Source of the DNA: Candidatus Tectimicrobiota bacterium
GTDB lineage: Bacteria > Tectomicrobia > Entotheonellia > Entotheonellales > Entotheonellaceae
Direction: 5' to 3'
NCBI GenBank assembly: GCA_026005175.1
Contig: BPKO01000011.1
Coordinates: forward strand, 1 to 64,000
Length of the DNA stretch: 64,000 nt
Below the pieces are notes generated by a model. It was not told the origin of the DNA, ran no database searches, and saw only the letters and a program-made list of their open reading frames with translations. Below, one piece after another: positions 6,931 through 9,774 of this stretch (the first letter of the stretch is position 1; the number at the start of each line of letters is the position of its first letter). The translations under genes were made by a program, and so were the position numbers.

Positions 6931-8708
6931 AAGGGTGAAGCCGGAACGCGACGAGGCAACCGCGCGGCAGCGCATCGCCGAGCTGACGCGGCTCATCAAC
7001 TACCACGACTACCGTTACTATGTGCTCGATGCCCCGGAGATTTCCGACGCCGAGTACGACGCGCTGCGGCGCGAACTCAACGCCCTGGAAGCGGCCTACC
7101 CGCACCTGGTGCTGCCCGATTCCCCCAACCGGCGCGTGGGCCCGCCGCGGCCCAGTGGCACCGGCTTTGCCACGGTGCGCCACGCTGCTCCCATGCTCAG
7201 CATCGACGCGGTGTGGAGCGAAGAGGAAGTCCGTGCCTTTGACCAGCGCGTGCGCGACGCCTTGCAGGTAAAGACGGTGACGTATACTTGTGAGCCCAAG
7301 TACGACGGCCTCTCCTGCGCCCTCACTTACGAAAACGGCCTGCTGGTGCGCGGCGCCACGCGCGGCGACGGCTGGCAGGGCGAAGACGTCACCGCCAACG
7401 TGCGGACCCTTCGCAGCGTGCCCCTGCGTCTGCTGGGAGAAGCGCCGGCGCGGCTGGAAGTGCGCGGCGAAGTGATCATGACCAAAGCCGACTTCGAGCG
7501 CCTCAACGCCGCCCAGGCCCGTGCCGGCCAGCCCCTCTTTGCCAACGCCCGCAACGCCGCTGCCGGCTCCCTGCGCCAGCTCGACCCGGCGGTGACCGCC
7601 AGCCGCCGCCTGCTTTTTTACGCCTGGGGCATCGGCGCCGCCGAGGGCTGGCAACCCAAGACGCAGTGGGAGGTGCTGCAGCAGCTTGCGGCCTGGGGAT
7701 TCCGCGTCGACGCCCACGTGCAGCACTGCCCTTCGCTTGAGACGGTGCTCGCCTACGCCCGGCGCATGGCTGCCGAGCGCGACCGGCTGGCTTTTGACAT
7801 TGACGGCGTGGTGATCAAAGTCGACAATCTGGCCTGGCAGCAGCGCCTGGGCAGCACGGCGCGGGCGCCGCGCTGGGCCATCGCTTACAAGTTCGCACCG
7901 CGGCAGGCCACCACGCGGGTGCGGGACATCGTCCTGCAGGTGGGGCGCACGGGGATCGTCACCCCGGTAGCCCTGCTCGAGCCGGTGCGCCTGGGCGGGG
8001 TGGAAATCGAGCGCGCCACCCTGCACACGCCGGAGCTGGTGCAGCAAAAGGACGTGCGCATCGGCGACCGCGTCGTCGTGGCCCGTGCCGGCGACGTCAT
8101 TCCCGAAGTCGTTGCCCCCATCGTCGACGTGCGCACCGGCACCGAGCGCCCCTTCCGCATGCCCAGCCACTGCCCGGCCTGCGGCACGCGCCTGGTGCAG
8201 CAGGGGGCATACTGGCTGTGTCCCAACGCCACCTGCCCGGCGCAGGTGCAGGGGCGCATCGTGCACCTGGCCTCGCGGCGCGCCTTTAACATCCACGGCC
8301 TGGGGGACAAAGTGGTAAGCCAGCTGATGGAACACGGCCTGCTCAAGAGCCCGGCAGATGTCTTCCGCCTGCGCGTCGAAGACCTGCAGGGGCTGCCAGG
8401 GTGGGGTCCCAAGCGGGCCCCAGAACCTGATCAACGAAATCGCGCGGCGCAAGCGCCTGCCTCTGGCCCGCTTTCTCTACGCCCTGTCCATTCCCGGGGT
8501 GGGCGCCCAGGTTGCCGAGGTGCTGGCGGCGCACTTTGGCAGCCTGCGGGCTCTCATGCAGGCCAAGGTGGAGGAAATTGCAGCCGTGCGCGGCGTGGGC
8601 CCGGCCATTGCCCAGAGCGTGGCCGATTTCTTTGCTAACCCTGCCAACCGCCGCCTGGTGCAGGATCTGTTTGCCGCCGGGGTGCACGTCGACGAACCGA
8701 GACGCTGA
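6923..8708 (+). pseudogene. ligA: NAD-dependent DNA ligase LigA, lacking a BRCT domain, one frameshift
   Basis: Seals DNA nicks with NAD+. Start ATG at 6923. The NAD-binding Ia domain ([23 protein letters not shown]), adenylation lysine K126 in CEPKYDG, the OB fold, the four-cysteine zinc finger ([17 protein letters not shown]) and the helix-hairpin-helix domain ([30 protein letters not shown]) are all visible. One extra C in GGGCCCC near 8418 shifts the frame; removing it gives [13 protein letters not shown]. The protein stops right after the HhH domain at about 595 residues, without the usual C-terminal BRCT domain. The gene is essential, so the frameshift is probably an error. Confidence 0.92.
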
Positions 8709-8711
8709 TGA
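8649..8711 (+). repeat. ligA 3' end, copy A of a diverged direct repeat
   Basis: The last 63 bases of ligA including its stop (TGATGA) match 9712-9774 without gaps at 53 of 63 positions (counted by eye). Both copies encode a tail of the form RRL.Q.L.AAGV..DEP.R followed by TGATGA. The repeats bracket the HNH module. Confidence 0.85.
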
Positions 8712-8724
8712 CAGGCGCTGCTCA

Positions 8725-9150
8725 TCAGTCCTTTGGCGGATGCCAGCCTGCTTCTATCCATTTGCGACGCACCATCTCAGCAACCAGATTGTTCAAGTTG
8801 AGCGCTATCACGGTTGCACGCCCACAAGCGGTGCGACCAACGATGTACAGCCCCTTTTCGCTCCATCGAAAATGGCGTGACCAACGCTGCTTACGCGGGT
8901 TGAACAAGCGCACTCGCCGTCCTGTCAGCGGATCACGCCCGTGCGTCTGGGTGCCTTTGTAATGGTTGCAGAGCCGACAGGCTAACCACAGATTGTCCTC
9001 GTCATCCGTACCGCCCCGTGCGGTTGGGAGGATATGATCGATTTCCAAAAACCACAGCACGTATTCCTGAGGGGCGCGGCAGTAACCGCAACGGTTGCCA
9101 GCCTGCTGTCGCACCCGTTTCTTTACCTCCTCGGGAATAGAAGCGCTCAT
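8725..9150 (-). CDS. HNH endonuclease
   Basis: A 141-residue HNH nuclease. N-terminal helix, zinc cysteines CGYC, then FLEIDHILPTARGGTDDEDNLWLACRLCNHYKG, which holds the catalytic DH, the Asn and the CxxCN of the beta-beta-alpha-metal fold. The C-terminal ~65 residues (LFNPRKQRWSRHF, YIVGRTACGRATVIALNLN) resemble the extension found in stand-alone HNH proteins paired with a small upstream gene. Its start overlaps the upstream stop by ATGA, so the two are translated together. The role could be homing, defence or DNA processing; the flanking ligA repeats favour homing. Confidence 0.85.
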   Translation of the reverse strand: MSASIPEEVKKRVRQQAGNRCGYCRAPQEYVLWFLEIDHILPTARGGTDDEDNLWLACRLCNHYKGTQTHGRDPLTGRRVRLFNPRKQRWSRHFRWSEKGLYIVGRTACGRATVIALNLNNLVAEMVRRKWIEAGWHPPKD

Positions 9151-9536
9151 GGGGACAGGGGCTCACGCAGTCCCCGCTGCACGGCCTCTGCTAGCGCTTC
9201 AGCCTGCCGCAACAGCTTCGCTTCGTAGAGCTGCATCAAGGACAGCAGTTCCGTGCGCTCTTGTTCTGTGAGCGTTCCCGCCTGCTGCTTATCGAGCAAT
9301 CGGCTCAGACGGCGGTTTTGCGATGGGGTAAGCCGCAGCTTCGTCAGTTTCAGCACTTCGGCATCGGAGAGTTCCGAAACCGGGCGGCTTTCTCCCAGTA
9401 CGACGTCCAAGGGTGGCAGCGCCAGGGCAACCGCCTCCGCCAGCACTTCCCGCACATCGCGGCATGCCAGTGTGGCCAGCCGTTCGGCACGGCTCAGAAG
9501 GTCATCGGGGAGTTCCAAGGTCACTTGTCGGCTCAT
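9147..9536 (-). CDS. Small helical partner of the HNH endonuclease
   Basis: A 129-residue protein of unknown function. It begins MSRQVTLELPDDLLSRAERLA, which resembles the ribbon-helix-helix start of antitoxin-like DNA-binding proteins, and continues with charged helices (LTPSQNRRLSRLLDKQQAG, LLSLMQLYEAKLLRQAEALAEA). The ATG at 9536 follows AAGGAGG closely. ATGA overlap with the HNH gene shows an obligate pair. It could guide or restrain the nuclease; nothing in the sequence decides this. Confidence 0.7.
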   Translation of the reverse strand: MSRQVTLELPDDLLSRAERLATLACRDVREVLAEAVALALPPLDVVLGESRPVSELSDAEVLKLTKLRLTPSQNRRLSRLLDKQQAGTLTEQERTELLSLMQLYEAKLLRQAEALAEAVQRGLREPLSP

Positions 9537-9711
9537 TGCCCCTCCTTACATCAACCGGGGGATGCTCTTCTCGCACGACGCAGCCTATGGCGGTATAATT
9601 CGCCCATGTAGGCATCATACGTACAGTACAGGAATATACACAGAGGCCTGATTCCGCTACCAGTTTCCCGTGCTGGACGTGAGTATAGCGGGCTTTCGCG
9701 CCGCTTTGCGC
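9537..9711. other. Non-coding right part of the HNH module
   Basis: About 175 bases without a convincing gene, clearly richer in A and T than the surroundings between 9590 and 9650. A TATAAT lies at 9594-9599 on the plus strand but has no -35 partner at the right distance. The promoter of the HNH pair must lie here on the minus strand. From about 9682 the sequence can be read as a ligA-like tail (SIAGFRAAL) leading into repeat copy B. Confidence 0.45.
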
Positions 9712-9774
9712 CGCCGCCTGAGGCAGGCCCTGCTGGCCGCCGGGGTACAAATCGACGAACCGGGACGCTGATGA
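9712..9774 (+). repeat. Relic of a ligA 3' end, copy B of the direct repeat
   Basis: Matches 8649-8711 at 53 of 63 bases without gaps. Translated, it reads a tail ending AAGVQIDEPGR with the stop TGA at 9769-9771, which overlaps the NUDIX ATG as TGATG. Similarity to the ligA tail continues more weakly upstream to about 9682. No ligA gene precedes it, so it is a fragment. Confidence 0.8.

Follow-up and report, generated by a model that had tools for sequence, protein, structure and literature searches.

Fungal mitochondrial mORFs are known in atp6 of Allomyces macrogynus and in atp6, atp9, cox2 and nad3 of Glomus (PMC3630166). In T4-like phages, intronless homing co-converts the flanking DNA (PMC2988022). 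A limited and incomplete literature search for a case of gene-end replacement in bacteria found none. The bacterial DNA analysed here (the window, a stretch of 64,000 nucleotides) carries an HNH endonuclease gene and a small partner gene between two diverged copies of the 3' end of a ligA gene (Table 1). Related genes form a mobile HNH–partner cassette of about 0.8–0.9 kb, which probably enters gene ends by replacing them, and the ligA gene of the window is included in this reading.

Table 1. Positions of the ligA gene, the two tail copies, the HNH–partner module and the NUDIX gene in the window.
Feature	Positions	Strand	Remarks
Second, BRCT-less ligA	6923–8708	+	594 aa if read across +1 frameshift near 8425
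Copy A, ligA tail attached to the gene body	8601–8711	+	Strong core 8648–8711
HNH endonuclease gene, 141 aa	8725–9150	−	PF01844 HNH, E = 7.6e-12
Partner gene, 129 aa	9147–9536	−	Overlaps HNH start by 4 nt
Region upstream of partner gene	9537–9666		GC 0.52
Copy B, putative displaced and decaying ligA tail	9667–9774	+	Strong core 9711–9774
NUDIX hydrolase gene	9771–10202	+	Putative original downstream neighbour of ligA

The preliminary description of this DNA reported an HNH gene and a coupled partner, both on the strand opposite to ligA, in DNA of lower GC content. Both observations are confirmed by the 4-nt overlap of the two genes and by a GC content of 0.59 for the module versus 0.69 for ligA and 0.71 for the NUDIX gene. 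His43, Asn57 and Asn66 of the HNH protein are kept in 98–100% of 56 family members. The nearest named HNH families by sequence are those of IscB and Cas9 (NF040563), with a match that spans the HNH stretch only. An Rfam scan of positions 8300–10300 for a guide RNA or an intron returned no match. Relatives of the partner protein give weak, sub-threshold matches to ribbon-helix-helix proteins, and the single-sequence structure model of the partner is poor (pLDDT 57).

The recurrence of the ligA tail 1063 bases downstream, previously noted with 53 of 63 matching positions, is real. Positions 8648–8711 and 9711–9774 form a direct repeat with 54 of 64 matching bases (84% over 64 nt, spacing 1063), and TGATGA is the end of both copies. 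When the DNA on either side of the HNH module is aligned, the score is 44, and none of 3000 shuffles exceeded 23. This score is high, yet bigger repeats exist elsewhere in the window, where comparison of 600-bp stretches with one another gives scores of up to 62 (99th percentile 30). The 63-base core of the preliminary description stands, but copy B actually reaches back to about position 9667 if followed in the protein register. The upstream extension of copy B (9667–9711) reads PVLDVSIAGFRAALR in the LigA register and is one codon shorter than the corresponding part of copy A (8601–8648). Its significance is p ~0.0004 with the register fixed and 0.0014 over four registers. Copy B is far better kept in its 63-bp core than in the 45 bp on the 5' side of that core. 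The ten mismatches between copies A and B are distributed 4/2/4 over the codon positions, so that foreign coding divergence is not apparent in the window. A gap of 13 nt separates the terminus of copy A from the stop codon of the HNH gene. As claimed earlier, the downstream copy overlaps the NUDIX start: the stop codon of copy B shares TGATG (9769–9773) with the ATG, and an open frame at 9670–9771 ends in this overlap. No further copies of A or B were found elsewhere in the genome. Where ligA and the HNH gene converge, the inverted sequence CTGATGA...TCATCAG (8704–8728) folds as a hairpin (z = -1.5), possibly a terminator common to both genes.

From sequence comparison, the ligA gene of the window is an accessory second copy and not the housekeeping ligA. 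A full-length, BRCT-bearing ligA is located on contig C5 of the same genome and is 70–74% like the ligAs of three family members. The LigA of the window shares ~52% with this protein over 590 residues; its closest relatives (67–69%) are BRCT-less ligAs from a Caldilineaceae genome and another Chloroflexi genome. Keeping an accessory gene intact need not matter. The earlier suggestion of a foreign tail that keeps ligA intact is consistent with the locus, but intactness may be of little consequence. The frame of ligA is broken near 8425 by an extra C, and its tail is found in the +1 frame as an ORF at 8358–8708. The Lon protease gene also shifts frame (303–333), which makes an assembly (consensus) error plausible, and the ligA frameshift may be such an error. 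The idea of a contaminant contig was discarded, as the composition of the contig carrying the window matches the rest of the genome.

Copy B had also been taken to mark the original ligA–NUDIX junction. The overlap with the NUDIX ATG agrees with this, whereas a search among relatives for an empty ligA–NUDIX allele, i.e. an overlap free of the insert, found none. The NUDIX orthologues in genomes G089 (56%) and G422 (61%) have no adjoining ligA, and the closest BRCT-less ligAs (L072 and L073) are followed by a LigD polymerase gene, not by a NUDIX gene. Which of copies A and B is foreign in the window is therefore judged by analogy; at 63 bp, the tail is too short for a tree to place copy A. The order of BRCT-less ligA and LigD primase-polymerase gene was observed in L073 (4430–7157 and 916–1464) and L072 (4998–7708), and L073 also has a LigD phosphoesterase gene upstream. 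This suggests that ligA and the LigD genes form an end-joining set with a NAD-type ligase. A search for Ku in the genome of the window (G000) found none.

The HNH–partner pair is widespread. A second copy (56%) is present on contig C8 of the same genome, and further copies are found in the family member G001. The cassette is present in 42 plasmid records, and most of the matches listed are cyanobacterial. Among genomes of the Chloroflexota group, 24 of 400 contain the cassette at E <= 1e-28, and the partner gene was upstream of the HNH gene in all 30 Chloroflexota loci examined. A search of viral contigs found no relative. Three cassettes on Nostoc plasmids share 89–93% DNA identity over ~750–790 bp in otherwise unrelated surroundings. 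The edges of this moving block are 50–65 nt upstream of the partner start and ~15–50 nt beyond the HNH stop. These alignments show that the HNH and partner genes form a discrete cassette that travels as one piece between unrelated sites. The cassette carries neither an intron nor an intein nor its own transposase. Additionally, Nostoc C052 contains a remnant (L155, 2738–2977) that retains the partner and has lost the HNH gene, and in Microchaete NIES-3275 (L156, 2501–2642) the start of a cassette adjoins a transposase gene. Many HNH matches in G001 lie within open frames of 430–466 aa, which are possibly IscB-like genes.

Flanking direct repeats were found at 13 of 59 cassettes, compared with 33 of 1497 control places (p = 3e-9). 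All repeats at E <= 1e-6 were counted, and the set of 59 includes the window that prompted the analysis as well as 30 Chloroflexota loci collected after the pattern had first been noticed. Within these 30 loci alone, six have a flanking repeat at this threshold, three of which are gene segments. The remaining 46 of the 59 cassettes have no flanking repeat at E <= 1e-6. Sorting of the 13 repeats by eye, from ORFs and translations, led to nine, the window included, being regarded as copies of gene ends or gene segments. The other eight comprise parB (L151, copies 90% alike), the head of dpdK (L152, 77%), the tail of CyRepA1 (L160, 75%), a short C-terminal tail (L164, 69%), the head of mfd (L166, 85%), the tail of a SnoaL-like gene (L183, 95%), the tail of a luciferase-like monooxygenase gene (L188, 87%) and a segment of Thg1 (L196, 77%). 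The repeats of L177, L185 and L192 look short or dispersed and were set aside, as was the unclear repeat of L165. The flanking repeats measure 41–283 bp and consist of diverged gene ends or segments rather than identical short duplications. When ten cassettes were scanned at first with 500-bp flanks, and then twelve with 600-bp flanks, a repeat was detected in the window only; the bracketing pattern emerged with L151, L152 and wider flanks. The first cases had suggested a fixed polarity of the intact and displaced copies. This was contradicted by L183 and L196, in which the intact gene is located on the partner side and not on the HNH side. Bracketing by diverged gene ends is a trait of the cassette family and occurs far above chance.

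The two ends can be told apart in the CyRepA1 case. The cassette in L160 (Nostoc TCL26-01) has a cassette-free plasmid allele, L204 (Nostoc ATCC 53789). In L160, a PEP-CTERM gene, the intergenic DNA and the displaced CyRepA1 tail match L204 in one unbroken alignment (85%, 899 bp), which stops 141 nt before the partner start. Thus, the native tail is the displaced copy, which is still joined to its neighbour gene. The tail adjacent to the HNH gene shares 73% with L204 over 284 bp, and the gene body shares 79% over 2587 bp. The displaced end is proven native for L160 only, while the layout itself is present in the window and eight relatives. In L151 the relic and the intact parB are about equally near to Trichormus (88% and 89%), so no assignment follows. 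Third codon positions account for 16 of 23 mismatches between the copies of parB, 28 of 52 for CyRepA1 and 10 of 17 for the monooxygenase, which indicates that both copies evolved as functional genes, presumably before they were joined. Such a history agrees with import of a foreign gene end and displacement of the native one, as in the mORFs. This bias is absent from mfd, dpdK, the SnoaL-like gene, Thg1 and the copies in the window.

By analogy with L160, copy A in the window would be the imported end and copy B the native one. The ancestor would have had ligA directly overlapping the NUDIX gene. A break within the 3' part of ligA, probably made by the HNH protein, would have been repaired on the side of the gene body with a homologous, cassette-bearing ligA end as the template (one-sided repair), and the other side of the break would simply have been joined. 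The product would consist of the ligA body, an imported tail (copy A), the cassette and the displaced native tail (copy B) with the NUDIX gene. Copy B, now outside any gene, would decay. Cleavage by the HNH protein would thus be the driver of insertion. The preliminary description had envisaged a simple element that swaps tails and needs neither an intron nor an integrase. This is supported for the cassette family by the bracketing with gene ends and by the pair L160/L204, and the ligA locus is consistent with it.

The better-kept 63-bp core of copy B is unexplained by simple decay of a displaced tail. Copy B might not be a simple relic: its core could be retained for translation of the NUDIX gene as a 33-codon, GTG-started leader that overlaps the NUDIX ATG. 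The open frame running into this overlap and the much poorer preservation of the upstream part of copy B agree with such a role. The leader would account for the retention of copy B but not for its origin, and we regard it as rather unlikely. For the window alone, the tail of ligA could have been duplicated in tandem long ago, with the cassette inserted between the copies later and independently. The lack of a coding bias among the mismatches and the failure to find an empty allele at the ligA locus are in line with this course of events. However, the same bracketing recurs for related cassettes in unrelated genes and only 13 nt separate the end of copy A from the HNH stop, which renders an independent insertion very improbable.

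The gene-end repeats could also have been left by a Campbell-type integration. A circle with a gene-end fragment and the cassette would integrate by a single homologous crossover, after which the cassette would lie between a complete hybrid gene and a truncated copy, and cutting of the target by the HNH protein would be unneeded. The resulting topology is identical, with the cassette enclosed by a direct repeat; recombination between the repeats would free the circle again and leave the gene restored, and a variable polarity would be natural. However, neither a circle nor a replicon or excision product was observed, and the near-universal conservation of the active site (98–100% of 56 proteins) would be left unexplained. 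This type of integration is considered unlikely. An equally low probability is assigned to the pair being a toxin-antitoxin or defence system carried as passive cargo, with gene-end repeats that stem from ordinary illegitimate recombination. A small upstream gene that overlaps the nuclease gene, the weak ribbon-helix-helix or antitoxin matches of the partner, the resemblance of the HNH protein to PtuB-type models of PADLOC and the location of several cassette copies near restriction, dpd or cas genes would all fit. On the other hand, the resemblances of the HNH domain are weak and general, and a tenfold excess of flanking gene-end repeats over the controls is not expected of passive cargo. End replacement remains the preferred reading for the cassette family and for the window.

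It is quite possible that HNH–partner cassettes are widespread bacterial homing elements that invade gene ends by replacing them, leave behind hybrid genes and displaced native ends in Cyanobacteria, Chloroflexota and the family of this genome and reshape gene termini from genome to genome, as the counterpart of the fungal mitochondrial mORFs. If this is true, a common two-gene cassette replaces the ends of host genes, and some bacterial genes are hybrids with imported ends. Bacterial HNH genes would be linked to a mechanism that, within the limited literature search, was found solely in fungal mitochondria. Furthermore, gene-end duplications that flank small nuclease genes can signal mobility. 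The Nostoc CyRepA1 pair L160/L204 is a ready site for studies of cleavage and transfer.

Several known systems share single features with the cassette. Type II toxin-antitoxin pairs with a CopG-like antitoxin also consist of two small overlapping genes, the upstream one being weakly ribbon-helix-helix-like in the cassette, but no characterised HNH toxin family was matched and the cassette has the mobility signature of gene-end replacement. In contrast to IscB and the IS200-IS605 elements, the HNH protein has 141 aa and no RuvC domain, and no guide-RNA family is present in 8300–10300. The free-standing homing endonucleases of T4-like phages are likewise mobile without an intron or intein (PMC2988022). 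The passages on them mention no gene-end duplication; the cassette differs further by its constant partner gene and by its hosts, which are bacterial chromosomes and plasmids. The mORFs differ in being found in fungal mitochondrial DNA instead of a bacterial genome and plasmids, and the ORF in Glomus atp6 encodes a LAGLIDADG protein (PMC3630166) rather than an HNH protein. The cassette, moreover, consists of two genes (HNH and partner), inserts on either strand and is found at gene heads and tails. In both systems the order comprises a gene core, a C-terminal part that is imported in the mORFs (PMC3630166) and putatively so in the cassette, an endonuclease ORF and the displaced native C-terminal part, and the native copy was identified by comparison with a cassette-free relative, for the cassette in L160.
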